Part shown: one piece after another, positions 1,189 to 64,000 of the stretch
Layout of the letters: every line of letters begins with the position of its first letter
How positions within the stretch are numbered: the first letter of the stretch is position 1
Assembly (NCBI GenBank): GCA_021464245.1
Contig: JADCRB010000035.1
Span: 714,762-778,761 of the forward strand
Direction of reading: 5' to 3'
DNA: 64,000 nucleotides
DNA from: Carallia brachiata
Taxonomy: Eukaryota > Streptophyta > Magnoliopsida > Malpighiales > Rhizophoraceae
Notes under the pieces: generated by a model
What the model was told of the DNA's origin: nothing
The model's input: the letters and a program-made list of their open reading frames with translations, nothing else
The model's database searches: none
Made by a program: the position numbers and the translations under genes

Positions 1189-1259
1189 GGGAAATAAAGA
1201 GGACTGTAGACATGTACCAAAAAAAAAAAAAAAAGGAAATAATAAAGAGAACTGTAGAT
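1189..1259 (+). mobile_element. Tail-only poly(A) micro-insertion with direct repeats
   Basis: A short stub catgtacc followed by about 16-17 A lies between two imperfect copies of a sequence reading ggaaataaagaggactgtaga. The right copy carries an extra ata and one substitution. The arrangement is what target-primed reverse transcription leaves when only the tail of a SINE or LINE is copied. The source element cannot be named from so little sequence. Confidence 0.55.
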
Positions 1260-1384
1260 ATAAAATCATTTTTTCTGTTTGTTATTGTTAGACTTCAGTA
1301 TTTGTAAATTATGTTGGACCCCTATTAATCTAATTTAAGCCGAAAAAGACCTACTAAAAAAGTAAAATTCTTCTAATACCTACT

Positions 1385-2295
1385 GTCTTTATAAATAGGC
1401 ATAAAGGTCAATTTTGTCCAAAACTTACGGCTGTTTGTTGATTTTATCCATAACGTTTTTTTTTTATGAAAATCGATAAAAAAAGTTTTCTCCGTCGCAT
1501 AATTATACCTACCGTTAATTTTTTCGTTAATTATACTGACGTGACAGTTGACAGAGTGCCATATCAGTAAAGTTGATGATGTGACAGCTGCCACGTTAGC
1601 GAAATTAATGGTGTGGTCCATGCCACGTCAGCACACGTCATCACTGTTGATGACGTGGCCTGTGCCACGTTATCTCAATTGATAATATGATATTTTTTTA
1701 TTTTTTAAAAATCTAAAGAGAGATTTTTAAAATATATTAATATTTAATTAAAAATGAACTCAATTTAATCTTTCAAAAAAAAATTTTAGTTTATTAAAAA
1801 GTTAAAAAAGAAAATCAATCTAAAATCAATTTTATCTAATAAGATCAAAATCCTTTAAATCGAAATTCTTCTAAAATTAATTTTATTTAATAAAATTAAA
1901 ATCTTTCAAATCCAAAACCCTTCAGACGGCAACTATTTTTATTTTAAATTTTTTATTAAATTAAGTAATTTTTTTGCTAGAAAATTAAATTGAGTTAATT
2001 TTTTTATTAAATATCAACATATTTTTATTTTTATTTTTTAATTTTTGAAAACTAAAAAATGTCACGTAATCAACTTGTGATGACGTGGCACCTGATTGTG
2101 CACAACTTTACTGATATGACATTCCGTCAGCTGCCACGCCAGCAATGTTGATGAAAAAATTAACGGTTGGATATAATTGTGTGACGGAAAAAAATTTTTG
2201 TGCCGATTTTCACAAAAAAAAAATATTATTAATAAAAATCAACAAACAAGTATAGGTTTTGAAAAAAATTAAACTTTATGCCTTATAAATAAGAC
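1385..2295. mobile_element. 0.9-kb element with long terminal inverted repeats
   Basis: The left end (gtctttataaataggcataa) and the reverse complement of the right end (gtcttataaataaggcataa) match. The match continues inward for roughly 150 bp through gtttgttgatttt, gtgaaaatcg, ccgtc and accgttaattttttc. The subterminal regions hold repeated gccacgt/acgtggc motifs, including a perfect 10-bp inverted repeat around 1634-1657. The centre (about 1690-2050) is AT-rich and non-coding. Long inverted repeats without coding capacity fit a non-autonomous Mutator-like element. I could not see a convincing target-site duplication, so the superfamily is inferred. Confidence 0.6.
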
Positions 2296-2529
2296 TTGAA
2301 CTTTTTCTTCTTTATTTTCTTTAATAAAATAAAATAACTTCTTCTGTGGGAACAAAGACCCAAGAAACCTCGTTTTGGACTTAGACGAAGAAATTTGCAA
2401 ATCAAGGGCCTTTGAAAGGGTTCAAATGTTTGGGCCTAGTCATTTTCACTATGCAAAACTACCGATGCGAAAAGGATTTACATGATTGAGTAAAGTTAAA
2501 TTCAGACTAATCATTAATATATTAAGAAA

Positions 2530-3645
2530 GGCTGTTTGGTATGGTTTAAATTTTTTATTTTTTATTTATTTTTTACAAAAAAACAGAAACTATATTTGGT
2601 TTCGTTTTTGTTTTTTGTTTTTTTTTTGTTGAAAAGTTAGAAAGTATTTTTCAAAGAAAAAAATAAATTAGAAAAATAATAAAAGATGTTTTCCCAATTT
2701 GTTTCACTTTCTTTTCTATAATTTCTCTTATAACGTTTTCTCTCTCTATACATGTGTTCACCATATCTCTCTCTACTCATTCTCTCTCAATCCCTCTATT
2801 TTTTCTCTCTCTTCTCTTTCTCTCTCTATCCTCTCTCTCTCTCTTCTCTCTCTACTCATTCTCTCTCTACTCTCACTCTACCATTCCCTCTACTCATTCT
2901 CTCTCTATCCTCTCTCTACCCTCTCTCTCTCTCTCTCTCTCTCATTTTTCTCTCTTTACCATTCTTTTTACTCATTCTTGTTCTATCCACTCGTTTTCTC
3001 CTTTTTCTCCCTCAACTATTCTCTCACCTCATTTTTTCTCTACCCCTCTCTCTTTTTCTCTCTCTAACATTCTCTCTCTACTCACATTCGCTCCTTTTTC
3101 TCACTCTACGATTCTCTCTATTGATTCTCTCTCCACTCTCTCTCTCTTTTTTCTCTCTCTACCATTTTCTCTACTCATTCTCTCTCTACCTACACTCTCT
3201 TTCCTTTTTCTCGCTCTACCATTCTCTCTACTCATTCTTTCTCTACTCTCTCTCTTATTTTTCTCTCTCTACCCATACTTTCTCTCTCCTTTTCTTGCTA
3301 TACTGGTCTCTCTATTCATTCTCTCTCTATCCTCTCTCTCACATTTTTCTCTCTCTACCATTCTCTCTACTCACTTTTTCTTTACCCTCTCTCTCTCTTT
3401 CCTCTCTCTACCATGCTCTTTACTCATTCTCTGTCTATCCTCTTTCTCTCTCCTTTTTCTCTCTCTCTATTCATACTCTTTTTACCATTTCCTTCACTAT
3501 CCTTTCTTTATCTACTTTTTTATTCTTATAGAAAAAAAAATAAAAATTAACAGTAATGAACACAAAAAATTCAACAAATAACAAAAATAGAAAAATAAAA
3601 AATAAGAAACAGTAACAAAAAATTAATAGCGTCTCCAAACGAATC
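2530..3645. mobile_element. hAT-like non-autonomous element with internal minisatellite
   Basis: The left end (ctgtttggtatggttt) and the reverse complement of the right end (attcgtttggagacgct) share a TGTTTGG/CGTTTGG start. Both ends are followed by A- or T-rich sequence containing aaacagaaac or gtttctt. This layout resembles common plant hAT-type miniature elements. The whole interior is a pyrimidine-rich minisatellite. An 8-bp target duplication was not obvious, so the assignment is an inference. Confidence 0.4.
2735..3510 (+). repeat. CT-rich polypyrimidine minisatellite
   Basis: About 780 bp of degenerate repeats built on units such as ctctctctactcattctctc and ctctaccattctctctactc. The top strand is almost purely pyrimidine with scattered A and very rare G. 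All three forward frames stay open for long stretches because the unit lacks stop codons in some phases. The resulting Ser/Leu/Phe proteins are artefacts of composition. Mirror-symmetric polypyrimidine DNA can form triplexes, but that is inference. Confidence 0.85.
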
Positions 3646-4255
3646 ATAAATAAATATGTACCCCATATGGTGTAAGCCATATGGATTTATATTAACTAAG
3701 TGCAAATGTTATGCCATATATGGTGTAAGCCTTCACCTATTGGCTCCTCTTGGAAGCAGATTCACTCATAGTTTATGAATCACTTGTCAAAAAAAATTTT
3801 GGTTGTTACTGATTTTAAACTCCAAAAATTCATTGCCAAATAGAGAATTGACAGACTAAGAGAACAGATAAATATGTGGTCATTGAGCTACAGAGGAGGT
3901 AGGGGTTCCTCCGAACTTCCCCCTTCCTTTTATTAAATGGTAACACCCTTCCTGTAGACTAAAAAAAAAGAAATACATAATGAATCAAATTTTTATTGCT
4001 TGATACAAGAGTCAAATCTAAACAAATTTAAACTCATTTTTTTATATCCTAAAAGATGATCCTTAGTACTGCTAAACCAAAAGTCGCTCAATCCTACTCT
4101 ACCAAAGGACAACTGGTAAATTATTATAGTTAAATAAATAGCGCTCTTTTACGAGCCAAATTCCGCCGTTCTTTCTCCGGACCTGAACAAAAGCAACTCG
4201 ATTTATTACGTCCACTGAGCCAGAACCAATCATACCTTAAGACCAAGAATGCCTC

Positions 4256-4302
4256 AAATTTGGGCCTTTTTTGTTTTTTTGGTCAAAAATTTGGGCCCTT
4301 TT
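4256..4302 (-). mobile_element. Tail-only poly(A) micro-insertion (minus orientation)
   Basis: The direct repeat aaatttgggcctttt / aaatttgggccctttt flanks a tiny insert that on the minus strand reads tgacc followed by an A-rich tail. The GACC-A(n) junction recurs at other micro-insertions in the window. Confidence 0.5.
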
Positions 4303-4402
4303 CATTCAATCTAAAGCCACAGGTTTCGACCCGAGCTCACAGGCTGACAATCAGGCCGCATGGCCCGACAATTCCCCGTGCTCAGTATAATATAACAACT
4401 TT

Positions 4403-4439
4403 GTTAGGCTTTGACCCAAAAAAAAAAAATCGTTAGGCT
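4403..4439 (+). mobile_element. Tail-only poly(A) micro-insertion
   Basis: An 8-bp direct repeat gttaggct flanks ttgaccc followed by about 12 A and tc. The stub is nearly identical to the one at 33834. Confidence 0.5.
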
Positions 4440-4770
4440 ATACTGCTCAAAGCCCACAATTACACCTATATACCGCCTATGAATCATGAAATGAAAGAGT
4501 ATTGGTTTACAGTAGGAATGTTTTTTTTTTAATAATTTTTTACGAATTTATTTTTTTATTGATATAATAAGAAGTTTTTATAATTTTATTTTTTTAAAAT
4601 TAAATCTTTAGTAAATTTAACGTTATTTTAAAATTTAAAATTTTTTTCAAAATTTGTGAAATTTTTTTTGCGAAATTTGTGAAAAAATTTTCGTGATATA
4701 AAGTAAAGAAATGAAGGGCTGTAAGTAGGGGCACGAAGTATAGTTGATTCAAACGAAGCTTCTCTAGAAA

Positions 4771-4792
4771 TGTGTGTGTGTGTGTGTGTGTG
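4771..4792 (+). repeat. (TG)n microsatellite
   Basis: Eleven TG units followed by a T run, seen directly. Confidence 0.9.
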
Positions 4793-5534
4793 TTTTTTTT
4801 TTTATTTTAATATTAACAGTGGAGGACTTGATCGTTATACGAATGTTAAACATGACCAAGAAATATAAAGGGGGAAAAGGATAAAGGAGCGAAATCAAAA
4901 GGAATACGGACCTTTAATTCCCCACTTGTCATAAGGGAAAAAAATTGGTATACTTGCTGTACCAACTGGGCATCATATCATGAAAAAATTTTAGTGACTC
5001 CACTGACATAGCTGAAAAATTGTAATAAAATGATGAAGATTGTTGGATTATTGAATTTATGAATAAATAAAAAATAAATAAATTATTAGATACTGTTAGA
5101 TGAGATTGTGTAGTTAATTGTTGTTACTTATTTGAAGTTATATAATATTACTTTTATATTATTTAAAATTTAAAAAATTTAATGGTATAAAATTTAAGGT
5201 TTAGGTTTTAAGATCTAAAATAATGCCTATTTAAATTAAGATTTCAATTTTGAAAGCACGACTCAATATTTCGCGCTCGGTTAACATAGTCGTGCCGCCC
5301 TTCTTAAAATCCACAAGGAATTTGGGTTTTGTCCATTATGCAAAGTTTGGTTTGTTGCCAACTTTACTAACGAAAGATGATTCCACAAAGACCATTGAAC
5401 CTTTTTTCCGCTGGTGTAAAGTTCTCCAAGGACGGAGATTCCTTCTTGCTTTAGCTGCAATTGAACACGCGAAATTCTTGTCTCGGCCAAAGGTTTGAAA
5501 TTTGTACACCACATTACAACCTTCTTTGCCACAC

Positions 5535-5826: not shown

Positions 5827-5837
5827 CTTTACCACAC

Positions 5838-18997: not shown

Positions 18998-19013
18998 GTT
19001 CGAACGGGAAGCT

Positions 19014-22000
19014 GGTTGCCAATTTGTCAACATGCGTTACAATTTATTGGTCAAACAAATAAAATCTGACATAACATAGATTTGTTTTTTTGGTGAAAAA
19101 AAATAGAAAACCACTGCTGTGTGTAGAGATGTCAAAAAAATTGGATTAAATTGGATTCGAATTAGATTGTTTTTTATTCGGGTCATTTTCGATTAAGTTA
19201 TTTTTGGGTTACACTACATTCGGTTGAGATTTGAGTTGGATTATTTCTGATTCAGGTTAGATTCAAATCAAATTTGAACTGAACTGTTATTTTTTTGAGT
19301 TATTTTTTACTAAAATAAAATACTTCAATTAAATTCAAAACTTATTCGTATATTAAATCAAATATCTAAATTTAGTTTTTTTCTCATATATATACTATAC
19401 TTTATAAAAAAGGTATTAATTAATATTTGAGAAAAATAAGTTAAAAGTAACAAGTCAAAAAAATCTTCCTTTTTGTTGTTGTTTTTTTAATTTAATGGGT
19501 GACTCAAATCCAATCTGATCAAACTCACATTTTTTAAATTATTTTTAAATTTAAATCACTTTTAAATTTGAATTAAAAAATCTAATTTCTAACCTAACTT
19601 TTTCAAGTGAGATTACTCAAGTTGTCAAATCAGTATCACTTTTTAAGTGTGGTAAACCACCGCCCTCCCAAGTTTACAACCTTTTAAAGGAATACATACA
19701 GTTGTCGTTAGACCACAAAGTTCTGTGGTTATAAAGAATTAGATGCTTAAGCCGAAGCCAGTATATGAAAAGGAAAAAAAATTATAGTAGTTGGGCACAC
19801 AACGACTTTGAAAAGGTTTCATGGGTTTATTGACAGTTACTTTTTACATGTGTTTGTTTGTTTTTTTTTTTTTTCGCGAATGCTTCTTCTGCATATGCAT
19901 TAATGTGGGTTGTGCTGCGTATAACTAATAACCCGTTACCGGGAGAAGTAGAGGAGAAAATAGATGCCTGATCAGGGAATTATTTCCTAATAAATTTACA
20001 AGTCATTTATAAGGACTATATCAAATCTTTTGATATTGGGTAACGATAATATACCCATCTATCCAAAAAAAAAAAAATGATAATATACCCAAATTTAGAT
20101 TCCACCTTTATAAATTGCGTGTAATTAAAACGGTGGAACTCTTTTAGAATATTGGGAAATGAAAACCATATTGAATTAAAAGGATTTTCTAATTTATATC
20201 ACCTTTTCATTGGTCAAGTTAAATCAATGTCAAATGTAAGGAAAAACAAACAATTTAGGTGAGCCTCAATTAAAAATGAAAAATGATAAAATAAATTTAT
20301 ATGCAGTCTAAAAATAATCTGTGTGCTCTATTTACAAAAATAAAAAGTACGTATAGCACTTACCTATAAAAAAAAAACAAATGAGAGTGGAACGGGATAA
20401 TACAGAGTAAATGATAATAACTACAAATGCGTGTAAAAAATTTCTAATTTGACTTACTTAAAATATAAGTCAAGTTAGCTCAATTTTGAATATGAGTGAA
20501 AAAAAAAATTTAAGTGGAGTTCGGTTGAAATTAAGAAATGATTAATAAAATTTATATTGTATAAGATCATATTTACTCAATATTTACAAACAAATGTAAG
20601 TAAAATTAGCAAGCATTCAAAGGTCATATACCCACATAAAATGTCTTTGGAATCTACTAATGTTAGCTCTTTTGATCTATTTCTGCCTAGTCTTGGGAGA
20701 GCTGGTGTACGGTATCATCTCGTTGCAAACTAGAAATCCCATCAAATTTGATCGATATTTCTTTAGATCTCTTGACGGGTTTAACGCCAGAGAACGGGTT
20801 TCACTTCCATATTTCCAGTTCAGTTGTCCTAGTAATGGTGTACCGTTCTCTTGGCGGATTCATTTTCCTTGTAGTTGAACATTAATTTCATTTTCTTTTT
20901 TCTTTTCCATAAGAAGATCCACAGTTTGTCAGTGAATTACTTAAGCTTGCGGTGAGTATTAAAGTGGCTGTTCAGGCAACCATTTTATGTTTATTAAGAA
21001 GGATATTAGTCAATCATGGTCATTTTCCAATTCACTGGATTTGACCAATACATGCTTTCTTTATATCTTCATTCAATCAGATGCATCCAAAAGCAAAATA
21101 TAAATAAATAAATAAATAACGAAATTATATACTCCTCCCTCCCCCCCAAAAAAAAGTTTTAAGTAGATGCAAGAATTGAAGCACATGTTGCAACTTTTGT
21201 CGTCGTGGTTCGATGATTCATCTTTGCAAATGTAGAAGTTATAACATTTGTCATTTTTTGTTTATTTAGTATAAGATACAAAATAACGAGAAAAAATTTA
21301 TGCGACCAACTCAATTACATTTGCAAGTAACGCCGTAATGTTATTTGTTTTTTTTTTTTTTTTTATGTTTGTTTAGTGCCGGTTCAAATTTTTTTTATTG
21401 GCTAGATTACAAGGTTAGAACTACAGTTCAATATCCTGTACGGGACCTAAAAGTTTGCAACTCACAAATAATAGTGCAAGAGAGGAAAGAACGAAGAAAA
21501 GAAGGATCATTTTGGGTGAAAGAGACGAACAAAATCTAAGGTCCATATGAAAGTTCTCTTCTAGATGGAAAAGAAATTCAACTCAGAATATTATTCCAAG
21601 ACTTTTGGTTCAGCGTGGGCAGGTTTGATTTTCAGTTTGTGCGAAATATTCTTGTGCAGTGGGATCGGCCAAGTGGTCCCCAGCCCACACTGCCATTCCA
21701 AAAAAAAAAAAAAAAGGAAAAAGGTTTGTCAATTCATTCGAGCATGGGGGGCCGGGATGAGTTTATGTATGTGAACCGGGCTTTTTTTTATAAGTAAAAA
21801 AAATAGGAAAGCAGTACTATTGCTTCAGATTTTAGAAAATATTCTGACTCTTTATTTGGTAAAATGTAGAGTAACTAAATAATTATAATATTATTTACAT
21901 TAAATTGTATAAAATTAATCTCATTATTTAACTCTAATAAAATTTAAATACGTGATCTTTTTATACCGACCTGAATCCTTTTAAACAACTAAACTACAAA

Positions 22001-22440: not shown

Positions 22441-24885
22441 ATGACGAACCAGAATGTGGTTTTATCTAATGATAAGGCCCGCATTGATCATTTCACTATA
22501 ACAGTGTCGTTGCCCAGGTCAAGGGGATACATCACCATAACACAGAAGAAATGTGCAAATGAGATGGAGAATGGCAGTGGAGGAGGAGGAGGAGGAGGCA
22601 GAGATGACAACATCAATTCATGGGTGGAATCAATGAGAGATTCCTCTCCCATCCGCGTCAGGCCAACAGCTCCTCTTCCGTCGGAAACCGACGACAAAAA
22701 TTCTTGGATGGTTAGTATCATCTTGTATAGTTACGCAGGCTGAATTGGCTTTCGTGCTTTTTTATTTCTGGTCTTTAAAATGTTACTGATTATGGTCTTG
22801 TCTGGTTTGCAACTGTTGATGGAAATAACATTGGCCAGCTCAATCACCCTTCCGCTTTAAGCATGTTTGAGCAAATTGTGAGTGCTTCCAAGGGAAAGCA
22901 GATTGTGATGTTCCTCGACTATGATGGTACACTTTCACCTATCGTGGAAGATCCTGACCGAGCTTTTATGACCACTGATGTAATCAATTTGCCTTTGCCT
23001 TTTTGCTCATGCTTCCTCCATTTTCGCTGAATTAAGTCCCATCATTCTTGTCAATATTGTCTCATTGACCACTCATCTCTGCTTTCATTAGATGAGAGAA
23101 GCTGTCAGGGACGTTGCTCGATATTTTCCTACAGCTATTGTCACCGGAAGGTGCAGAGACAAGGTACCATCAATTCTCCTTTTGATCTTTTCTTTCTGGC
23201 CTCTTTTAAATGTAATAATTTACCCTTTTATTTTGTGCATTGTGCTTGCACTAATGCTGTTTTCTCCGCATCTTGCAGGTCTACAGCTTCGTAAGATTGG
23301 CTGAGCTTTACTATGCCGGCAGCCATGGAATGGACATCAAGGGGCCATCTAAGAACCACGAGTACAGTAAAGTAAGCACTCCCTTTCACTGTTCCTCTGA
23401 CCAGTGTTTTTTTATTAAAAATTATTCTTTAGAGCTAGTTGACCAGTAATCGAAGAAAAAAAAAATTAGAGGGTAGAGTAGAGTTTCGACCACTCCAGCA
23501 AAACTAGTCGTCGGACCAGCCTCTTTTTCACGCCTACTTTCGGTTGCTGATACACGTACGTTTGGAATTGTATCGTATTGATCATCAGGGTCAACAAGCA
23601 GTTCTTTTTCAACCTGCCAGCGAGTTTCTGCCAATGATTGACAAGGTTTGCTTTCCTATCCCTCCGGTCAATGCCACAGCTGCGTGCACGAAATCAAAAT
23701 TGTTAATTTTCAGAAATTTTCCAAAATTTCAGGTGTACGAGATTTTGCTGGAGCGGACGAAATCTATTCCAGGAGCTAGAGTTGAAAATAATAAATTTTG
23801 CTTGTCCGTACACTTCCGTTGTGTAGAGGAAAAGGTAATATAGAACAAACAAATTAAACCTCTACTTTTTTTTCCCATTTATCTTCCTCTTGGCTCTTGT
23901 ATTATAAAATTTACCTCAAAGAGACTGATGTCTCATAATAACTAACCGTTCGTTAATCATTATACCTTTGATTTGGCAGATGTGGGATGCATTGGCTGAG
24001 CAAGTTGGATTAGTACTCAATGATTATCCAAAGCTTAAATTAACTCAAGGGAGAAAGGTATTCCACATCTTTCACGGGTATTCCACATTTTTTCTGTTCA
24101 AAAAAAAAAAAAAAACAGAGAGAGAGAGAGAGAGGTATTCCACATCTTTCACGGGTGATCGTTGATTAAGCTTTCAATATCCAAAGGTTAAGAAAAATTT
24201 ATGGCAAAAGCAATTGACTAATATTCTCTCTTTTTTTATTGTTCTTTTTTTTCCCCGGGCCAGGTTTTGGAGATTCGACCAACCATTAAATGGGACAAGG
24301 GCAAAGCACTTGAGTTCTTGTTAGAATCGCTAGGTGAATATTTTCCCAAAATTTTTTCGTGTCTTTTCTTAATCTCTCTTAATAATGAACAATTTTCTAC
24401 GTTATATAATTATGTTTGCTAATGTCTTTATCTTCAGGATATGCCAATGCTAGTGATGTTATGCCTGTCTACATTGGCGACGATAGAACAGATGAGGATG
24501 CGTTCAAGGTCTCCATCTCATGCTCTTCGAATTAATTTTCTCCTTTTTTTTGGTTAATTCAAAACTTCTAGTCAATGTGCCATCCGTCATAAACAGGTTT
24601 TGCGCAAAAGAGGGCAGGGTCTTGGGATTCTTGTTTCTAAGGTTCCAAAAGAAACGAATGCGTCTTATTCTCTCAAAGAACCAGCGGAGGCAAGTTCTAT
24701 ATTTAAAAGAGAGAATTTTATTTTTTTTTCCTTGTTGAGATGTAAACATAATACTTGTAACATTGCCAATTTTTCAATATTTGCATGTTGACGTACTTAT
24801 AATTACATCAATGCAGGTTAAAGATTTTTTACGGTGTTTGGTGCAATGGAAGCAATTGTCGCTACGAGGACCATGTAGGGAGTAA
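22441..24885 (+). CDS. TPP: Trehalose-6-phosphate phosphatase
   Basis: Removes phosphate from trehalose-6-phosphate to give trehalose, controlling the sugar signal T6P. Eleven coding exons join in frame to 371 residues, the usual plant length: 22441-22710, 22839-22979, 23092-23163, 23279-23371, 23589-23645, 23733-23834, 23980-24057, 24264-24333, 24438-24508, 24597-24689, 24817-24885. Residues 1-90 are the variable N-terminus ([10 protein letters not shown]; a Gly run; SMRDSSPIR). HAD-phosphatase motifs follow: LDYDGTLSP at about 116-124 (nucleophile D117, acid D119), PTAIVTGR at about 150-157, lysine in IKWDKG near 283, and [10 protein letters not shown] at about 308-317. The start is the first ATG after the leader intron and gives a family-like N-terminus. 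The last intron begins with GC, and intron 7 carries a poly(A)/GA insertion that duplicates its donor. No frameshift or stop is present. Which of the several plant TPP paralogues it matches cannot be fixed from the sequence alone. Confidence 0.95.
24056..24156 (+). mobile_element. Tail-type micro-insertion in TPP intron 7, duplicating the splice donor
   Basis: A 24-bp perfect direct repeat (24056-24079 and 24133-24156, starting aggtattccacatc) flanks a short stub, 16 A and a (GA)n run. The first copy begins exactly at the exon 7 boundary AAAG|gtattc. The second therefore recreates a donor, GAGAG|gtattc, 77 bp downstream. Reading on past the normal donor stays open to a stop near 24163. Confidence 0.6.
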
Positions 24886-25047: not shown

Positions 25048-25048
25048 T

Positions 25049-28559: not shown

Positions 28560-30452
28560 TGAAACTACTAATTGATTATTGTTGTTTAATTAGCATTGTT
28601 AAGCCATTCTCTGCATCCCAAAGTTATAGCTAATCCCGTAATGCACACCAATTAACGACCTGTGGCCATTATATATAATTATCATAGACACTTGCCTGTG
28701 GTTTAACTTTAATGCAAGCTACAAGCATGTTCTGGCATGCATTAAATTAGTTTTGCTGCTTCTGGTAAAATCTCTACACTTTGGGAATGATCCGATTGGG
28801 TGTCTAAATTTTAGCACTAGGATACTCAATAATGGGCCATTAGAGACGTGTCGTTCTACCCAAATTGGTCCCCGCCTAGCTAGGAGGTTGGTTTATTGAT
28901 TTTATCATAAGAAAATTGAAGGAATTGGTACGGCATTTGAGATAATTCATTACCTATATCTGACCACCCATATGGGCCTTGTCATGGGGAGCAAATGATC
29001 ACTGTGTGTTTGTATACCACCTGCCACCCTGATGGGATCTTCCCGTAATACGTAGAGGAATCTTGTGCACAATTTTTCTTTTTTCTTTTTCGTTTGTTTT
29101 TTTTGTTTCCTTCATTCTCAATGCACCAAGTTCACACACTTCCTGGGTCTGGAAAAATGTAAGTTTTACCTCTATTTTTATTATTATTATTATTATTTTT
29201 TTATAAAAAGACTATTTTTACACCCAAACTCTTAACTTCTAGTTCAATTCCAGGTCACTTCCGGTTCACAACGGAACAAACTTTTCAAGGCTCGTCCTTT
29301 CTTCTTTTTCACTGAAGGCCCAACTAATGACACCGACACAAAGGAAAACAAACTTACCCATGCCGGTATATGATAACTATATATAATTCAGTGGGTATGC
29401 AGGAAGGAGGAAAGCTTCAATTCATGATAGAAGAAGTAGTGTGAGTTGGTTGAATAATGACGTTAACGAGGAATCCATCTCAATTTAAAGGCGCGATCAT
29501 TCCCATATTACCTGTCTTTTGTTGGAAAAAAAAAAAAAAAAGCAAGAAAGAGGTAGGTTTTGAAATTGTGTATCTTTGGAAAAAGTGGTGTTGATCTTTT
29601 CTTTGGCAAGTACAACAGTCCTAATCACCTTGCCAACTTTTAGTTCGCAAAACACTTTGCCTTGTCTCGTGCGATGTTCTCCGCCGAAATTGTCTCTCGA
29701 TGCACTGTGACGGAGCCATTTTGCAATGCTCAATGCTAAAGTATTGCCGCAATATATCTCAGTTTAAATGGAAAATTTTAATTATTTTATTAAAATGCCA
29801 TACAAAATTATTCACTGTGACAATCAACATTAATGGTTTTTGTTAAAACCTACAGTACCAGAAAGCTTTAATCTATTAGATTATTAGTAGATTGATTAAT
29901 AAAACTCTTATTATATGTTTCCATATTTCTATTTCGTCTGTGTGACTTACTTTTGGTTTTCTCGATAAATTAAGAAGGTTATTTGGCATTTTGAGGAAAC
30001 AAGGAACGGAAACCACCCAGCTATCAATTTAGCTCTCTTCTTTATATTTGATTCCATGATTTTATCTCTATCTAGCTTAGACCTGCACTTGGAATATTTT
30101 AGCCTCGCTTTGGCCATTTTCCTGAATTTGCCATTTGTAGAATCAGGGATAACTGATTTCAACAGTAATCCTAATTGCAAAATTGGCCAAATAGGCATTC
30201 GAGGACAATGCTAACTAAGATATTTTTATTTTTATTTTTTTGTTGTTATTAGAAGTTTGGGGATAATAAGAGTTTCCTCGTCTCAGGGTTAAGGAGTACT
30301 TACAGATCATCAAAGGCACCTACAAATTACTAAGAATTGCATTAATAACTTATGTATCATACATCTACAAAAAAAAAAAACTCTAAAAACAGTTAGCCAA
30401 ATTCAAATTCATCAGAGGTCAGCAATGCTCAAATTCATGACGTAGCCATTAA

Positions 30453-30547
30453 AAATTAGAATCCTTAATCGTCGACTAAGACTTTTTCTTTTTGTTTTTT
30501 TTTTTGGTCTGCAAAATTAGAATCCTTAATCATCGAGTAAGACTTTT
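30453..30547 (-). mobile_element. Tail-only poly(A) micro-insertion with long direct repeats (minus)
   Basis: A repeat of about 34 bp beginning aaattagaatccttaatc, with two mismatches, flanks an insert that on the minus strand reads gcagacc followed by A-rich tail. The direct repeats are longer than usual for target-primed insertion, so an unequal duplication is an alternative. Confidence 0.5.
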
Positions 30548-33818: not shown

Positions 33819-33872
33819 GATTTCATCAATTGATTTGACCCAAAAAAAAAAAAAAAGGATTTCATCAATTGA
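33819..33872 (+). mobile_element. Tail-only poly(A) micro-insertion
   Basis: A perfect 15-bp direct repeat gatttcatcaattga (33819-33833 and 33858-33872) encloses only tttgaccc, about 15 A and a g. This is the cleanest example in the window, with no room for any element body. Confidence 0.7.
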
Positions 33873-36405: not shown

Positions 36406-38761
36406 TTAAAAAGTCGAACCGCTGTCCGCTGGAGGTTGGCGGCTGCGCTACCTTTACCTTCTTGTTTTTTCTTACTCTCCGTTTCCTACTTTGCGTTTTG
36501 AAGTAGCTCTTTGTTGTACATAACATAAGCTTTCCTTTTTTGTCCGTCTTTTCTGAAGGAAAAGGCAATAAGGCAATACTTGATTTAGTAATGCAATAAC
36601 AAAAATATCTGTACGTCTAAAGTTAATTGCACAACTAACTTGCAGGAGACGAAATTGTGGAAACAACACTTGAATCATGCCTGTGCCGGCAGTGTTTGCA
36701 GGCCGCTGGCATGGGAGTGTGCAATTAAAGACCAAAGTCAGAAAATTAAACCTTAGGACCCTATTTTTTCCTCGGGTAGTTGAATTTTTTTTTAACGAAA
36801 TGAAATTATTACATTAATATCAAGCGATTTTATACATAAGATTGATGCGAAGACATCGGGTAAATCTATACGAGGACGTTAGGTGGTTGGATGTAACTAG
36901 TAGTTTTCGTTGGAAATTGACTGCCCATGTGAATATTGCAGCATTCATGGTTCCTCCAAGTTGCAAGTATATGATATAGGGGTTTGTTTTTGCGGTTGAG
37001 AGGCGCTTTTACAATTCAGATTGGAACAGTAGAGTTTAAAAATGTTTGGTAAAAAAACTTTCTCTTACTGTTGAGGTTGCTTTTTGGTTTCAATAGTAAT
37101 TGATATAAAAAAATAATATTGAATTACTTTATAAGAAAAAAAACGTAGCTAATGAACCTATGATGACCAAATTACCCTCCAAAAGCAGGTAGAAGAATTA
37201 ATTGCAGTACTACGCAAGGGCTCCACATCAAGCGCTGTGGTATTTTTCTTTTTTGTTTTAGCACTCTGCAACCATACTTCTTGTACTCTATAGCAAATGT
37301 ATAAAACTAAAACAAAAATTAGAAATAATATTTTTAAAATAATAATATTTATTATAAATTATACTTTATCTTTAAGTTACTTATTTAATAAATTTTTATT
37401 TATAAATGAGATGATACATTTTAGTTTTACTTGTTTAAATTAACTAGAGATAAATAAAATTATATATTATAATAAATTTGAAATAAAATGTTTAAAATAA
37501 TTAATTTATTATTTAATTAGTAATAGTTATTATTAATTTAACTAAACTTTATAGTTCATTTTATTCATTAGCAATAGTGACAAGTAATAACAATTAATAA
37601 TAAATATTAATAATTAATAATTAATAACAATATTAACAACAGTAAAACCAAGCACTCCCATAGTATGGCATAGCCATAGTTGACAATAACTGTATTTCAA
37701 CAGCAAGTAGTGGAATGAGCATGGTCTTCCAAAGAAAATTCGGAATTTTCCCTTATTTGAGAAGCATGAGAAAGAGGTTGGAAAGAAAAAAAAAAAAGTT
37801 TGAGTTGTCAAACCAATCAAAAAAATTAAAATAAAAAATAAAAGATTAATGACTATAATAACTCTCACATATTCTATAGTAGTAGGGATATTTTTGTAAT
37901 TTTAACTTAATTCTTCAATTATTTATAAGAATATTTTTGTAATTTTATTCATACACTTTCTTTTTTACAATTTTTTCATGCAATTCAAATACAAAATTTT
38001 ACTTTCTCATTATTTTCTCGTAATCTTCTTTTTTCATAATTTTCTTTCTTACTAAAATCTCACAATCCAAACACACTAAAAGTGTATATATACTAAGTGA
38101 TCCGAAGTCTGAACAAATTAAGTTAAATGAACCTTAGATTCATTCTCCTCATCGTGTTTACAGACACCATTGCATTGACAATGACATCAGGCATGATAGT
38201 CCCTATCTATGTCAGTAAATCATTCATTGAATTGTTCTTCGGTTGAGTTCTCAATTGTATGATTGGTATGCAACTTGCACAAAGAAATTGAACCATCTTT
38301 CTTTGGCGCAAGGTCTGCTATTATCAAATCAAGAGCCAACCATCATATCCATGGCGAAACAAAAAAGAAGCCCGGGCCCCTTGAGAGAAAGCATTAGAAA
38401 TTAGAATATGGGTTGCAGCCTAAAGAAACTAACAGCCAACACAGATCCATGGCCTATGGGCCAATAACACAATAGGTGTTGGGGGGTTCTCATGATCAAT
38501 TGCCGCTGATTTGCCAGAGCTTGCTGTCAGGTCAAGTTAAAAAACATCAATGTCTCGTCGCATCATCACCCTCTTATTCCTTTAAACCAACGTCGTCGGC
38601 CAAGCCCAACTCAGCTTCACTCGATTAAATCTTGACCTTGAAGTAATTGGGGTCATGTACATAGATAATTGTCCCCCACTTCCTCTCTTTTTGGGCCAAA
38701 CTATCTATAATATGAGGTAGCTCATCTTCCCCTCTATCCCGAGACATTTTAGGCTGGCAAA
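36406..38761. other. Intergenic DNA after the F-box gene
   Basis: The first few hundred bases are the probable 3' UTR. The part from about 37010 to 37640 is AT-rich and resembles decayed DNA-transposon sequence. No gene is supported. Confidence 0.5.
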
Positions 38762-39270
38762 ATTTTTTAAACAGCTTCATTCTGTGTCCATCTATATAAC
38801 AAGGAGAATATATTTGTATTCTTTATTTTTTTTAACAGAGAATATATTTGTATTCTTATTTTATCCTTCATTGTACTTTTCCGTATTTATCTTAACGTTG
38901 CCATTTTCCTTTTTTTTTTTTTGTTTTTGTTTAGAAGATTGCCATGTCAATTACAGGGATATATAATTTTTTAATTAAATTTTTATATTCTTTTACATTT
39001 AAATCTTAAATTTTTTTCAAATTTTTTAAACAGCTTCATTCTGTGTCCATCTATATAACAAGGAGAATATATTTGTATTCTTTTTTTTTTAACAGAGAAT
39101 ATATTTGTATTCTTATTTTATCCTTCATTGTACTTTTCCGTATTTATCTTAACGTTGCCATTTTCCTTTTTTTTTTTTTTTTTAGAAGATGTGGTGTCAA
39201 TTACAGGGATATATAATTTTTTAGTCATAAATCTTTATATTCTTTTACATTTAAATTTAAATTTTTTTAA
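38762..39270. repeat. 259-bp tandem duplication including a MITE end
   Basis: Copy 1 (38762-39020) and copy 2 (39021 to about 39270) both start attttttaaacagcttcatt. Both include tccttcattgtacttttccg and the first roughly 70 bp of the MITE starting gggatatataattttttagt. Each copy also has an internal repeat of gagaatatatttgtattctt. The duplication must postdate the MITE insertion because copy 1 contains its left end only. Confidence 0.85.
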
Positions 39271-39692
39271 AATTTTATTTTAGTTCTAAACTTTTTAATT
39301 TTGCTCCAATTCAATCTTCCCATTAGTCAATCCATTAAAAATTAAGTTTGACTAATGAAAATTATTTTAAAAAAGTAAAATACACTATTTAAATTCACTA
39401 ATTAACAAAATATGTTGTGTAATCTTAAAAAAATAAAATAAAAAATAAAAAACTCAAAATCCTAACTCATCGCTACTGATTGAGCGTATTTCTTAAGAAA
39501 AAATATTTAAATAATATATTTTACTTTTTTAAATAATTTCGTTAGTCAAACTTAATTTTTAACAGATTGACTAACGAAAAAACTAATTTAGAGTAAAATT
39601 AAAAGGTTTAGAACTGAAATGAAATTTCAAAAAAATTTAAAATTTAAATATAAAAAAGTGTAAAAATTTAGAACTAAATAATTGCATATCTC
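39206..39692. mobile_element. Mutator-type MITE, 487 bp, copy 1
   Basis: Flanked by gtcaattaca (39196-39205) and gtcaattata (39693-39702), a 10-bp target duplication with one mismatch. The left end gggatatataattttttag pairs with the reverse complement of the right end, gagatatgcaattatttag. Complementarity continues inward for about 180 bp (attagtcaat and aaattaagtttgacta on both arms). Long inverted repeats with a 9-10 bp target duplication fit Mutator-derived MITEs. It has no coding capacity. Confidence 0.75.
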
Positions 39693-39953: not shown

Positions 39954-39973
39954 GAGAATTGCTGTTGTTAATC

Positions 39974-40012
<39 letters not shown>

Positions 40013-40023
40013 ATTGCTGTTGT
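39954..40023 (+). mobile_element. Micro-insertion with A-rich and (GA)n tail
   Basis: A 15-bp direct repeat gagaattgctgttgt flanks taatcaaaaacaaaaac followed by (AG)n of about 14 units. It resembles the TPP intron insertion, where an A run also leads into (GA)n. Confidence 0.5.
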
Positions 40024-43768: not shown

Positions 43769-46700
43769 ACAACTGGCTCTGGTGCCATTTCGGCTTGCCA
43801 CTTTGGCTGTCAGTCAAATAAATTTGAATTTCCTGTTCCAATAATTTTGATTCACTGGCCTTGGAAGTGAACTTTTTCTATCAGATTTTACGGCGAGGGA
43901 TGGTGAAATCCAATCCCGATTAATTTATAGCTCACCCCCTTTTTTTCCCTATTTTTTCCAGTTAAGAAGATTTGAACTTGTATTTAAATTTGTACAGCTT
44001 TTTCTTTCCTTTCCCCGTCTGTAATGTATATGTACTGCTGTATTTGCGCCTCAGTTGAGAATCTGATATTTCTGTTGTTTGACGTTTGAGTGCTTTCTTC
44101 ACTCTTGTTTCAGAGATGATGTTGATAGTTGAATTATTAACTTCATCAAAAACACTTATTTTTCTTCCATCATCTTTCACGTGTGCGTGTGTAGAGACAA
44201 CTGTGAGAGCCACAATCTCAGTCACATGCAATTTGATCCCGTTTCTTTAATTCTTGGATTTGCTTGTTGAATAAAATACGTACATGTTTAATGACATATG
44301 GGAGGACACAATTAATACAATAACATTCTATAGTTTTCTTTTTTTTTTTTAAAATAAATATAATTTTTACAGTTTCAAATTATAATATTTACTGTGTGAC
44401 CTCCAACTATATTGCTAACAAAATTTTCTGTTGCTCGTCAGTAAGTGCCTATTTGGAGTTAGTTGTACCTCCTATTATTCCTTTTTATTTTTGTCCAAAA
44501 AAGATGGAAAGCCATCTCACACTCCCGCTAGATAGAATCCAAATAAAGATTGCGCAGAGGAGGTACTCAGTTACAGAAAACAAACTTACCCTCTAATGTT
44601 ACGCTCACGACATGTTTAATCGTTTTACTTGACTTAGCAATTAGCACGACTTCAAATTCATGATCTCTTATACAAAAATAAAACTGTTAATCACATCAAC
44701 TACTCAGTTGGTGGTCCTCATTATTCTGCATTCCAATAAATTTCCACCGTAGTCCCAAATGCAGGACAACAGATTGTAGATCCGGTGTGCTTTCAAAGCA
44801 AAATGAATTTTCAAGACATTTTGTGAAATTAAATACATTAAATTCCCTATAATAAATACGTACTTAAATTAATTATTATTTATTAGTTGCATAGAATATT
44901 TATTATATAAATAAAGTTATTAAATCACTTTTTTTTTTATAAATAAATAATTTATTTTTATTTTAATGAGCTAAATTGTTACTCGTTTCTTTTTTACCAT
45001 CTTTGGAAATTGACATGCCCAGAATGTCCAAATGGATTACGCAAAACAAAGCGCATGAGCTGGTAAGCATGTAGAAATTGATGCCCGTACATCGATTTCT
45101 GCGGCCTCAAAGCCCCAGGGCACATCATTGGCGTAGTTTTCAGATTTCAAAGGATGGATATTTACCCAATTGGGAATTTGACTTTTCAGTTCAACGATCT
45201 GCAAATCAAGGAGTTAAAAACGGCTCAAAAACTCTGAGAATTGTTATCCCTAGATCACATGGAGACAACATCGTGCGTCTAACATTTATAAAATACAAGT
45301 TACAAAGTTCTAACTATTATGTTGTTTCTTGAGATATTAAGCTTTCTTTTTTTTTTTTTGGTAAAAAAAATAATAAAGTAAGATAGTAACTATTATAAAA
45401 AATTACGCTGTTTTACTTTATATAGTGGGTTGAACTCTACATCAAACTTATAAAAAAACAAGTTGAAACCTAATAAGGTCACAAACTCTGCAAGAGCACA
45501 CGTCATTTAATTCTATTAAATATCTTAACAAAAATTTGAACTTATGACTTTATAATAAAAAACTAATCAACTTAATATTAGACATGGTTGGTCAGATCTC
45601 CCAATCTAGTCAATCGGTTATACTTCAAAAATAAAAATAGAAAGCTGGCGCCATCCTTTTTTAGTCTAGCGAGGAGCCCAAGCCCATCGTACAGTACGGG
45701 GGGCGGAAACGGAAAAGTGCTGGGTTGTGAGCCAGCTTTGTCCCCGAGCAAGCGAGGTGGCTAAGCCCATAATGTGCGTGGAATCGTACACTACGGGGGA
45801 CGAAAATATGAAAGTGCTGGGATGTGAGCCTGCTTTATCTCCGTGCGCAGCCCATAAGAAGAACTTGATGTTTTGGCAGTCACCTGTTTATGATTCTATT
45901 CCTAATTTTTATGGAAAAAAAAAGTTAATATTTATCAAACGTTGATATAAATAATAGAGGTCTATTATCGTTTAATCAAAAATTTTGAGTTAAATTCTTG
46001 AAATAATCTATATTAAATACCTGTTACAAGATTTTTGCTGTCCACGTGATCCTATCTAAGTTGGTCTGATTAGTTAACTTTCAGATTGAATACCAAACGG
46101 TCTTCAACAAAAAAAAAAATATATATTTTGCGGCATCGGTTGGCAAAGAGCTGGAAGACATGCCACGGTTTTTTTTTTTTTTTCTACTCTGGCACGGAGC
46201 TAGGAAAACATTTCTACGCTATAAAAAATTTGCAGAATTATTTCGAATAAATTTCATTCACTACTACTTAATCAACTAATCCGAAGTCTTTTTTTGGAAA
46301 TAGAATATTTAAAAGAAACGCTCTCAACTCTTTTAAGTAAAAGAAATTAACATATAACATGAAGTAGTTAGCTGTTAGACTAGTATTTAATGTATGACTT
46401 CTTCGTCTTATAATTTTCCGGTGTTTAATCTGGCACCTTATGTTTTATCTGATTTAATTTATGTTATATTATAGAAAACAATAGGAAAAAAATGCATTGT
46501 ATTGTAGATCTAATTTAATTAATGGTGCATGTTAATTTTACTTTTTTTTTTATGAGTATGATTACTCATTATTTTATTTTTTTATCTTAAATAATCATCA
46601 CTTATTATATATGTAAAATTATAAGTAAATTATATTAAAAAAATTGAGTCAAATTAATAATTTTCCTAATTTTTTTTAGTACTTGTTGGCGTTGGATTAG

Positions 46701-53231: not shown

Positions 53232-53831
53232 AACAAAATAGTTTTGCCAATTGGAATTTGTAAATCCCCTTTAATTTTGACTTTTTTTTCGCAATTTTTG
53301 ATATTTGCGAATCCGCCAACTATTTTGGCTTGTCAGCCTGGCAATTCCAATCGGGAAAAGCCATCCCTCGCGGAGCTAACTATTGGCACGCGAGTCTACA
53401 GAAGAATTGCAATAATATTATACTAGATTAAATTGAGCACTTTGCTAACAATATAATAGTAGTAGAGATAGATTAATACTTGGTAAGCGTAGATTAGGTA
53501 TAATAAAAAATGAGATTCAAAAAAATAAAAAATAAATAAATTATTATATGAAATCAAATAAATTACGTGATTACTTATATCATTTTAAATTATATCTATA
53601 TAATTATATTTATAATATATATCAATAAATAATGAGATATCTAGAAATAATTTCAATATGTCAATCGGGTAGAATGTATGTCTCTGTCCCGTGCCAGAAT
53701 TGTGATGGTTAATGATGATGCCAAATCGCCTACATTAGTTGCTTGCACGCGTCATCTTCTTTCTTCAAAAATCAAGTGATTATTATTTGCCTTACGGCTG
53801 ACATGTAAATTCTTATCAAATATGGAATCAA

Positions 53832-53877
53832 AGTCAAACTCTATTATGTCAAAAAAAAAAAAAAAGTCAAACTCTAT
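53832..53877 (+). mobile_element. Tail-only poly(A) micro-insertion
   Basis: A 13-bp perfect direct repeat agtcaaactctat flanks tatgtc plus about 15 A. No element body is present. Confidence 0.65.
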
Positions 53878-54079: not shown

Positions 54080-54360
54080 TAGATGAATTATTTTATTTGT
54101 ACCTTAAACTATGCAGTGAAACTCTTAATTTATAGATGTCTAGCTCCTACACTCCCTAAGATTAGAAAGGGTTCTACCACTAATAATAACCTTACGTAGC
54201 ACCAAACTATTAATTATTTGATATTATTAGATGAATTATTTTATTTTCACCTAAGCTATGTAGTGAAGCTATTAATTGATAGATGTCTAGCTCCTACACT
54301 CCCTAAGATTAGAAAGGGTTCTACTACTAATCATAACTTTAGGTAAGATCAACATACTCA
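54080..54360. repeat. 148-bp tandem duplication
   Basis: Both copies contain tagatgaattattttatt, tagatgtctagctcctacac and taagattagaaagggttcta in the same order, offset by 148 bp. Scattered substitutions make it older than the 305-bp duplication at 18201. Confidence 0.8.
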
Positions 54361-60376: not shown

Positions 60377-61769
60377 TTATTCTGCTGAAGGGCAAATCCA
60401 TAGATCAACGGCACCTTCACCTCTTGCAGAAGCATTCTCCAAACCCTTGTCATGGTGAAAATCTGACAAAGAAGCTGATGATGATGAGTAATTGTTAGCC
60501 CTCTGTGGGTTCAAATCGAACGGCCTCAATTGATGATCTTGTTCACTCCCATGATCCCGCCACATGTTGACATGATGACTAGGTAATCCATTAAGGTTCG
60601 TATTCACATGTCCATGGCTCATACCCAGTTCTTCAAAAGAAGGCGGCAAAGGCAAATTACTTGCAGCAGTCGACTTTGCACCCAAATTACCAGCAGCAGC
60701 TGGCACATTAAAAGAAGACTGAAATGATTGGGTTTGTATGAGCGATTGAAATGGAAACATCTGATGATTTTGCATGTTTATGATCATATTTTGAGGTTGT
60801 TTGTTGGGTAGGCTGCTTCCTACTAGATCAGAGGCCAGTTGGTAGTTAATAGAACTGGGGTTGGAAGAACTAGTAGTTGTGATTACTCCTGTACCTGTAC
60901 TTCTAATTGTATTGTTATTGTTAGCAGTTGTAATAGCAATACCAGCGGCATCGACCATATTGTTTTTATTCAAAAACGAATGAGGAGGAGACAGAATCGG
61001 GGATTGTTGATGATGATGAAGTTTTTGAGCCAAGGGACGTAGAGGGTAGATAGATCCCAATGGTTCCAAATGGCCAGACCTGAGACCCGAGCCAGCTGGC
61101 CCAAAAGGGTCGAGCCTACGGGAATATGGTGAGCCGGAAAACGGCGGCGCTGGGATTCCCGTGAACTCTTGCACCATTGCCCTGAAATTGGAGGTGTCCG
61201 TGGTGAGAACGGTAGTGGTGCCCTCCTTGATGCCCGTGTTCGCTTCTTGGGGTTTCTAGGTGCTACCCCTTGATGATGATGAGTTTGATCAGACGGTTGA
61301 GAACCGCGTGCTCCATTATCATCATCATGTACCGACTGCAGTTGGGCGGCTGATGAAAGTGGACCTTTACTTGATCCTTGATGGGCAGCCAAGATTAACT
61401 GACTCGACGATGATGATGCTGATGGCAAGGAGGTGGACGAGCCAGCGGGGAAGTTGTTACCGAGGTCCGAGCAATCGGGGCGGGATCTTGAGCCTCCTGA
61501 CCGGAAGGCGTCAAGATTTAAAAAGATGAACTTGGAATTGGGATTGACGGAGACTGAGAAAAAGCAGCACCACCGAAAATTGGCGAAGGATCATACAGAT
61601 GAGATGGCAATTGAGGGCGTTGGTGAGGTTGTTGTCGGTTTGACACAGAACCAAAGTGGGCCGCTGAAGGATTCAAGAAAGCTGCGACATTTGGCTGTCC
61701 CCTGATCGAGTCATATTCCTCGTCACCGCCACTTGACGATTGCATACTGCCACTGTTGCCAGAATCCAT
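60377..61769 (-). CDS. VQ-motif protein (two single-base gaps)
   Basis: VQ proteins are plant-specific partners of WRKY factors and MAP kinases in stress and development. The start MDSGNSGSMQSSSGG at 61769 and end VDLWICPSAE at 60377 give 464 residues after two one-base corrections. The VQ motif FRAMVQEFTG (residues about 196-205) matches FxxxVQxxTG. It is preceded by a basic patch KKRTRASRRAP and TDTSN, and followed by IPAPPF. The remainder is low-complexity: Ser-, His-, Gln- and Asn-rich, with a DLNP-like FDLNP near the end. The single exon is typical of the family. Frame breaks lie at the A-run 61520-61524 (one base short) and near 61213-61218 (an A missing in coding ccact). An upstream in-frame ATG at 61817 would add 16 residues. 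The VQ motif and C-terminal part are intact without correction. Confidence 0.85.
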
Positions 61770-62204
61770 AGCACAAGGCTTGAAAGAGAGAGAGATATAT
61801 GTACTGGGGGTCTCCAAGTTGCACTAAAGAAACAAGGATGATCAATGATCTGGCTCTTTTGGTGGCTACCGCATGCAGTGCTTATGGGGTTACTCTCAAA
61901 GAGCCCAATTGAATTAAACAAAGGCAGATCATGAAGAGATAGCATATAAATCTTCTAAATCAGCCTTTTGACAACCTATGGAGCCTGATCTGAAATGGAG
62001 GCAACTAATAATACCAAAGGTATCAGCGCTGAACAGTAAAAAGAACAGAAAATGTACACAGATCTTAATTATGGTAAGGTGGCTGTCAAGAGAGAAAAGC
62101 AGAAAAGAAACACAAAAAAGGGTTAAAGAGAGATATGTATGTAAAGATCTTTATCTCTTTCTGTTTCTTCTCCTGCTGCTTGTACTGTTGTTGTAGGCTT
62201 GTGA

Positions 62205-62427
62205 TTAGGGTTTGTCGTGGGGAAGGAAATGAAAAAAGAGAAACGACAGAAGAGAGAAGATGTCATTTAAGCCTTTTGTTAAAGAGGCTTCGACAATTTT
62301 ACTTCTTCTACGCAAAAATAAAATAAAAAAGATCCTGCACAGAGTGCAGGGTGTGGGGTGGGGTCTCCATCGGCGTAGAGAAAGAGTTTCCGGTGGCTGG
62401 CAACGGGTCAAACTCAAAGTGAATGTA

Positions 62428-62474
<47 letters not shown>

Positions 62475-62475
62475 A
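62205..62475 (-). promoter_or_regulatory. VQ gene upstream region with telo-box, W-box and microsatellite
   Basis: On the gene strand the stretch holds a telo-box-like aaaccctaa (62205-62213), a TTGACC W-box core within tttgacccg (about 62404-62411), and an adjoining (CT)n-(AC)n microsatellite (62427-62475). A leader or proximal promoter role is inferred from position, 440-700 bp before the ATG. Confidence 0.35.
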
Positions 62476-64000
62476 TCAGTTGAGTATGTGAATTGAAGAA
62501 AAGGATATGAATGAAGCTTGAGAATAGAGACCTGAGATAAAAGAAGAAGAAAGAGGAATACGAAACCAAAACAATTAAAGAAAAAAACGAAAGAAAAAAA
62601 ATAAAGCAGGAGGATTATTAAAAATGGTAATTTAATAATAATTTAATTTTTTTTATTTGAGTTTAAATTTTCTCATTAATATTTTTTATCAATTAAAAAG
62701 ATAATGTAAGTGTGAGTATAATATTAAGATTTAGACTCGTTAATATTATATTTAAATTTACATGAAACTTATTTAAATTTAACAGCATTTTAATAATAAG
62801 TTCATTCCATAAAAAAAAGTTAAATAAAAGAATTAATAAATAACCTTAACTTGTCTCACATGTATAATAATAAATATATTTTTTTAGTTAAAAAAGAAAA
62901 AATAAAGCAGGAGGAATATAAAAGGGGACGCGTAGGTTCTTCAGCCACATGTTAACAGTGAGCAAGTTCATTATTACCATAGCCATAGTCACTGTTATAT
63001 AAAAAAAACTTTTTAAAAAAATCACTGTTGCAAAATTCTCTATGTTTGAGTTCACACTTCACGCTTCGCATTAGCACGTGTGTTGGCACCGTCGATTGTT
63101 TTTGAGCTAATGGTTAAGAGATTGGTTAATATCATTAGGTCATCGATTTAAATTGCTGTCAAAACATTCAGATTTTGCATATTTGTGGGTTTGACTGATT
63201 ACTCTTTTTTTTTAATAAAAAAATTATTATAAGTATTTCGATTATCAGATCTGTAAGTCGAGGTCAAAATATTTTTTGTATGTATAGCTCATTCAACCTG
63301 ACTCATATGAAGGAACTCTCTAACTGAATACTGTTGAAACCAAGCAGACTTTCCCTAAATCGACTATAGTGATTATCGAATTTAAAATCAACTCGCGTGC
63401 GCACAATCAAACTAGCAGCTAAAGAAGGACATTATCTTTAAACGCAGATATTAGGACTCGAACTTATATTATAAGTGAGAGACAAGTCAAGTAACTATCA
63501 GACTACTACTCCATACTTCAATTGTTAACTAATTACTCTTATTAAATTTAAAAAAATATGTTCTTTCACAAATTTAATACAGGAACCTATCACTTTACTT
63601 TATATTCTGAACAATTCTTTTTAGTAAGTCTATTGACTTACTCCCTCTAAAAAAAAAAAAAAAAGTCTATTGACTTACTCTAAATTAGAAATAATTCCAT
63701 TTTTGTTCCCAGGCCAAGCATATGTATTAGCAATAAATAATTCTTTAATCCCGGAGGTATGATCACACAAGCTTTTCGACGGTTTGACTTGGAAAAAAAG
63801 TTTTTTTTTCTTAATTTAATGCCATAGATCTAAATTACCCATTTTTGCCATTTTTGCTTTAAAAATAATTCGAAATTTCTCATATCTTTTGCCATTTTTT
63901 TTAGAGCCCTTTTCGATCAGAAATAACAACTAACAAGTAAGAAGGCATGCGATATATAGATTATACGTGTCTTCTCTTTGAGGACTTTTTGTTTTTCAGA
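62476..64000. other. Intergenic DNA at the right edge
   Basis: AT-rich. It has a possible SINE relic at about 63095-63230 (gagctaatggttaagag, then catcgatttaaattg, then an A/T-rich end) and one poly(A) micro-insertion, listed separately. No gene is supported up to the window end. Confidence 0.5.
63627..63680 (+). mobile_element. Tail-only poly(A) micro-insertion
   Basis: A perfect 17-bp direct repeat agtctattgacttactc (63627-63643 and 63664-63680) encloses only cctct plus about 15 A. Together with 33819-33872 it is one of the two cleanest cases. Confidence 0.7.

Follow-up and report, generated by a model that had tools for sequence, protein, structure and literature searches.

A stretch of 64,000 nucleotides of the Carallia brachiata genome (G000:C96:714762-778761; assembly of 337.5 Mb in 164 contigs), hereafter the window, was analyzed for tail-only insertions, in which two direct repeats enclose only a stub of a few bases and a poly(A) or A-rich tail. 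Eleven such loci, some of them graded as probable, lie in the window, along with genes encoding VQ-motif, LEA_2, F-box-like and TPR proteins. For the VQ protein, the top-ranking named relatives (51-56% identity) come from Dovyalis, Populus, Ricinus, Salix, Turnera and Hevea, all Malpighiales. The loci are as follows.

1189..1258, plus strand: tail-only insertion; repeats 1189-1210 and 1235-1258, stub CATGTACC 1211-1218, A16 1219-1234
4256..4297, minus strand: tail-only insertion; 11-bp repeats, stub TTGACC, tail A7CA6, repeat score 11
4403..4439, plus strand: tail-only insertion; 8-bp repeats, stub TTGACCC 4411-4417, A12 4418-4429
20044..20091, plus strand: tail-only insertion; 13-bp repeats, stub TCTATCC 20058-20064, A13 20065-20077
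24057..24156, plus strand: probable tail-only insertion; perfect 23-bp repeats, tail A16 then CAGAGAG(GA)n
30452..30543, minus strand: probable tail-only insertion; 31-bp mismatched repeats, stub GCAGACC, A-rich tail of 23
33819..33872, plus strand: tail-only insertion; perfect 15-bp repeats, stub TTTGACCC 33834-33841, A15 33842-33856
38804..38857, minus strand: tail-only insertion; perfect 20-bp repeats, stub TGTT, short A-rich tail
39063..39114, minus strand: second copy of the 38804 insertion through local tandem duplication, no independent event
39954..40023, plus strand: probable tail-only insertion; perfect 15-bp repeats, stub TAATC 39969-39973, tail A5CA5C then (AG)n
53830..53877, plus strand: tail-only insertion; 12-15 bp repeats, stub TATGTC 53845-53850, A15 53851-53865
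63626..63680, plus strand: tail-only insertion; 16-18 bp repeats, stub CCTCT 63644-63648, A16 63649-63664
837..894, plus strand: weak candidate outside the eleven; 19-bp repeats with two mismatches, stub CACCCAAAACCGG, A10

All ten loci listed in a preliminary description of this DNA exist, and reading of the letters confirmed their order of direct repeat, stub, A tail and direct repeat; the insertion at 38804 was absent from that list. The loci at 4256, 30453 and 38804/39063 are read on the minus strand. Clean examples are 1189, 20044, 33819, 53832 (repeat from 53830), 63627 (from 63626) and 4256. The repeats at 1189 differ by a 3-nt insertion and one mismatch (score 14-15), and at 4256 the first T of the stub, or the A, may be repeat sequence. 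The locus at 4403, with a score of just 8, is weak by itself, and the repeat at 30453 exceeds the other cases in length. At 24056 it is ambiguous where the repeat ends and the stub begins, the stub being 20 nt long, or 11 nt if a partial second copy GGTATTCCACAT represents the left repeat. The 38804 insertion was carried along in a tandem duplication (38760-39025 and 39019-39276, 93% identical).

At 24116-24133 and 39986-40008 of the window, and at the GACCC-A15 site of one sampled locus elsewhere (L024), the A tail passes into CAGAGAG(GA)n. Since the targets at 24056 and 39954 themselves start with GAGA, the (GA)n may have expanded by slippage at the border between tail and target duplication.

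Excess over chance and recurrence in the genome

Exact A-runs of at least 10 on both strands of the window (n=78) were scored for flanking repeats (match +1, mismatch -3). Repeats scoring at least 10 flanked 9 of the 78 runs, a count which includes both copies of the 38804/39063 duplication, against 0.15 expected when flanks were re-paired between runs. Random positions outside A- and T-runs gave an expectation of 1.24 at the same score, a control probably inflated by the long pyrimidine-rich simple-sequence tract at 2667-3581, which is open in several frames by composition. A scan of 173 A-rich window tails with a free stub of 0-30 nt and a score of at least 10 revealed eight stubs of 3-8 nt (again with both 38804/39063 copies), two of 9-14 nt and one of 15-29 nt, each class with an expectation of 0.00, and none of 0-2 nt (expected 0.10). 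When repeats scoring at least 13 were sought up to 4 kb upstream of 143 window A-runs of at least 8, the bodies found measured 4, 4, 5, 6, 7, 8, 8, 13 and 23 nt, plus one of 601 nt; three further matches of 217-261 nt represent the local tandem duplication.

Stub and tail combinations of the same kind recur over the genome. TGTC-A14 is counted 1215 times and its reversed pattern 318 times; for GACCC-A12 the two counts are 877 and 114. More generally, C precedes A-runs of at least 14 (C-A14) in 41,491 cases and follows them in 26,247, a strand asymmetry that fits the tails of long interspersed nuclear elements (LINEs). Forty TGTC and 48 GACCC sites, selected by the 3' end alone and not by body length, were taken in listing order (contigs C1-C6), hence non-randomly, and scored with a threshold of 10 and a mismatch of -2. 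Bodies of 4-14 nt were present at 13 of the 40 TGTC sites (12 of 4-8 nt and one of 9-14 nt; expected 0.00) and at 12 of the 48 GACCC sites (nine and three; expected 0.10 and 0.00). Chance as the source of the window and sampled-site structures is ruled out by the re-paired-flank controls.

Two sites, L003 and L029, were left out of the samples as near-identical to L002 and L027, while the pairs L110/L111, L130/L131, L136/L137 and L139/L140 were retained in the 88 sites used for body lengths. Near-identical pairs of sites (L002/L003, L027/L029, L130/L131, L136/L137, L139/L140) lie 13-270 kb apart on one contig or form inverted copies, and both members are filled; they are either local duplications or assembly duplicates.

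Forty C-A14 sites taken in order along contig C1, with the stub disregarded, included five with a body of at most 14 nt (expected 0.05) and none of 15-110 nt (expected 0.05); one of these sites (L191) is identical to a site of the TGTC sample (L069). Extrapolation of 5/40 to the 41,491 C-A14 sites suggests about 5,000 such insertions, with a wide margin. Among A-runs of at least 11 outside the window and the sought sites, repeats scoring at least 10 were found at 6 of the 52 preceded by C, 2 of the 38 preceded by G and 2 of the 64 preceded by T. Fisher tests in which the stub samples were set against the first 20 C-A14 sites, one of them positive, gave p=0.02 and 0.04; this contrast was not used, being smaller with all 40 sites (5/40).

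Under a strict criterion (A-run of at least 11, score of at least 10, stub of at most 14 nt) the window holds 5 insertions per 64 kb, six other stretches 1 per 60 kb, and the fetched flanks together with LINE loci 6 per 177 kb. The window thus exceeds the rate elsewhere (7 per 237 kb) by a ratio of about 2.6, and its rate is biased upward by its having been chosen as already flagged for such loci. The earlier estimate of one insertion per 6 kb holds within this window and does not extend beyond it, where the strict count is 7 per 237 kb and 60 kb are without excess.

Body lengths, LINE 3' ends and nick sites

The distribution of body lengths is sharply divided. Among the 88 sampled sites, 25 bodies measured 4-14 nt, none 0-3 nt and none 15-40 nt, and three fell in the range of 41-245 nt (one TGTC and two GACCC; expected 0.45 and 0.30). 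Uniform truncation or exponential truncation with a mean of 200 or 1000 gives p below 1e-24, and ordinary random 5' truncation is ruled out within 15-245 nt by this distribution. Longer LINE copies are also present, as at L083 and L128, which show homology to open reading frame 2 (ORF2), and at L109, which shows a LINE 3' end. Bodies of LINEs at sites lacking short repeats were detected by tblastn at L025, L030 (antisense), L083 and L128, and at L109 blastn revealed a LINE end of 24 nt together with its tail; the matches obtained for L086 and L133 were rejected as LINE bodies, consisting mostly of the A tract.

Analysis of the genome with PF13966 (zf-RVT) gave 150 scored hits among 1339 candidates, some in open frames of more than 1000 aa, and by this homology LINEs with predicted reverse transcriptase regions are present in the genome. 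The source LINEs probably belong to the L1 clade, as judged from the zf-RVT hits together with the literature on flowering plants, the LINEs of which are described in one study as almost exclusively L1-clade (PMC3747384). An A-run of at least 8 was sought 980-1160 nt downstream of 50 PF13966 loci and found at 32, and C precedes the tail in 30 of these 32 LINE 3' ends. They include TTATGTC, TTTATGTC, TTTGTGTC, TTTGTC, CCTCTC, TTACTC, GAATC, GAATCC, CAACC and AAACC. The window stub TATGTC (53830) matches the ends of two LINEs, L043 and L050, exactly, and in general the stubs look like LINE 3' ends of the same genome on comparison of their letters.

A GACCC end was not found among the 32 LINE 3' ends. 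It occurs at L128, where ORF2 homology (52% over 52 aa, E 3e-14) lies about 50 nt upstream of GGGCGTTGTGCC-TCCTTATTTGACCC-A14; the 3' end of this element, TTATTTGACCC-A14, is of the stem-loop type, and L127 ends similarly by eye. With its ORF2 homology beside GACCC-A14, L128 provides at least one LINE with a GACCC end, of the kind that the preliminary description proposed to search for. The single source suggested there for the stubs was not borne out: GACC(C) fits one type of LINE end, and TATGTC and others fit different LINE ends.

The poly(A) or A-rich 3' tail, which defines the class, is present at the loci. A collection of 37 insertions was assembled from the 25 of the 88 sampled sites, the 11 of the window and L170. 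Over 33 of them (L140, L023, 24056 and 39954 excluded from length statistics) the medians were 7 nt for the stub (range 4-14), 15 for the tail and 14 bp for the repeat. Stub and tail lengths are uncorrelated (rho -0.14, p=0.43, with tail lengths bounded by the search patterns), and a fixed total length of complementary DNA was rejected accordingly. For the nick site, 18 of the 37 were used, in which the right copy directly follows the tail and scores at least 10 without tail bases, with one taken per near-identical pair (L140 excluded). The bases before the left repeat offer an independent test, since the left copy lies away from the tail. A was found there in 12 of 18 cases at position -1, 16 of 18 at -2 (p=1.7e-6) and 11 of 18 at -3. 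These bases correspond to the A side of the nick consensus of L1, of TT/AAAA type (PMC2912911; PMC12016303), as target priming predicts.

Mechanism and competing explanations

LINE proteins very probably made these insertions by target priming. Our preferred explanation, to which we give a probability of about 0.65, is that each locus represents a LINE insertion by target-primed reverse transcription which came to an end no more than about 14 nt from the poly(A). A LINE endonuclease would nick a T-rich site, and the poly(A) of the LINE RNA would anneal at the nick and prime. The enzyme would copy the tail and 4-14 more bases and then stop, and the end would be joined to the other side, fixing the tail and the last LINE bases between target duplications. 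It would be the enzyme rather than the template that ended early, with a 3' stem-loop as the likely barrier in those families which have one. A clear stem-loop was found in 6 of 32 folded LINE ends (L087, L092, L095, L096, L098 and L103), 11-12 nt before the tail. Being clear in just 6 of 32 folds, such a barrier is not general and was rejected as a feature of every LINE end; the GACCC class is compatible with a stem-loop situated 11-14 nt before the tail. The preliminary description had likewise proposed target priming ended just past the tail. The repeats, the A-rich nick side, the tails and the LINE-like stubs support the priming, and the choice of an abort over a short template remains inference.

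Several observations weigh against this explanation. At score 10 or more, 27 of 40 TGTC and 36 of 48 GACCC sites lack short-body repeats; they may be old, longer, derived from LINE families beyond the set used, or no insertions, and are mostly unexplained. At score 9 or more, the six other stretches, of 10 kb each, gave 3 cases against 3.6 expected from re-paired flanks, compared with 11 against 1.4 in the window. The 32 LINE ends were drawn from 50 loci, and several of these ends are closely related to each other. CCTCT (without the final C), TAATC, TCTATCC and CATGTACC merely resemble LINE ends, TGTT has no terminal C, and stubs of 4-8 nt are too short to name a donor. L086 possibly has a mid-length body of 237 nt, beyond the span of the body-length count; the two-class picture is unchanged by it. 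A clean empty site with a single repeat copy was not found in searches within this genome. The search with 63450-63850 gave one other place (contig C129), which matches over 56 bp at 82%, is too diverged and does not align across the insertion, while other copies found with 38760-39300 match the right end only. The L139 insertion has two local copies (L139/L140), both filled.

The closest competitor places the limit in the template. LINE RNA cut or degraded to a piece held by protein, comprising the poly(A) and about 10 nt, would be copied to its 5' end and inserted. This would yield the narrow stub length (n=33) without any stop signal, and it agrees with the uncorrelated stub and tail lengths and with the lack of a clear stem-loop at most LINE ends. 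Nothing direct speaks against it; in stem-loop families, however, no stub extends past the spacer of 11-14 nt, as an enzyme stop would explain without extra assumption, and we regard short templates as unlikely. The same mechanism could have acted on other donors, i.e. RNAs of short interspersed nuclear elements (SINEs) or ordinary mRNAs, with LINE proteins mobilising them. In plants, SINEs may have 3' ends in common with LINEs (PMC3747384), and stubs of 4-8 nt do not identify a donor, but the stubs resemble LINE ends of this genome, with TGTC 4-fold and GACCC 8-fold over reversed patterns, where random mRNAs should give diverse ends. Scans of the window for tRNA and Rfam families gave no match, and no SINE was identified in this search, limited to those scans. 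SINE copies as such were rejected on the same scans and on stubs of 4-14 nt, too short for a tRNA- or 5S-like head with an RNA polymerase III promoter. Other donors are accordingly considered quite improbable.

The repeats might instead have been produced by slippage, or when staggered double-strand breaks were repaired with filler DNA, with the A tracts arising separately. The window does hold direct repeats around non-A spacers, for example at 3665, 37888 and 55837. Against this stand the A-rich nick side, the C-ending stubs resembling LINE ends, the narrow stub length and the excess over re-paired flanks, and such an origin is highly implausible. The earlier argument that slippage would not give stub and flanking repeats together was upheld.

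A wider proposal, which we put forward tentatively and at somewhat less than even odds, is an early checkpoint in plant LINE retrotransposition. Reverse transcription would commonly end at most about 14 nt from the poly(A), and no farther than the 3' stem-loop where one exists; the product would be sealed with normal duplications. Such scars would be frequent, perhaps the commonest LINE product with thousands per genome, and would seed A-rich microsatellites.

Related systems and other repeats

The insertions resemble 5'-truncated L1-clade LINEs in their A tail, in target duplications measuring 8-20 bp, in the A-rich side of the nick and in the LINE-like 3' end adjoining the tail. They differ in retaining 4-14 nt of the element, with bodies of 15-40 nt absent and those of 41-245 nt rare in the samples; the new part is this sharp short class of bodies. 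A-rich microsatellites can arise from retroelement tails, and the A tracts here can likewise expand into repeats (24056 and 39954 being examples); in contrast, no element body lies by the tract, and the origin is visible through the direct repeats alone. One plant L1 lineage is described as having a conserved 3' stem-loop (PMC3747384), and the six stem-loop ends and L128, the latter with GACCC, resemble it in this structure. Human L1 orphan transductions (PMC13009371) also lack an L1 body and show target-priming hallmarks, but carry unique sequence from downstream of the source, whereas the stubs here would be only the last bases of the LINE itself. A human and chimpanzee survey retained insertions of 50 bp to 10,000 bp (PMC2912911), a range that would leave out the tail-only class. 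The class was not found in titles and abstract openings among the matches listed, most subscription journals being outside that scope, which is weak evidence of novelty.

If the explanation is true, plant LINE activity is undercounted, because library-based annotation misses scars as short as those of insertions that end in the first bases. Counting such scars would record where target-primed reverse transcription fails. They would also give rise to A-rich microsatellites and serve as clean markers of single events, with two repeat copies against one. The body-length gap makes the step from initiation to elongation of LINE reverse transcription testable in vivo through counting.

Other repeats were observed in the window. 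Positions 39206-39300 represent the end of a dispersed repeat family with at least 49 further genome matches listed (40 of 1011 candidates scored), several of which form inverted pairs about 400 bp apart and resemble miniature inverted-repeat transposable elements. Two direct repeats of 82 bp with a spacer of 65 nt are situated at 54109-54337, and imperfect 26-bp direct repeats with a GC-richer spacer of 71 nt at 45714-45836, both with no A tail.

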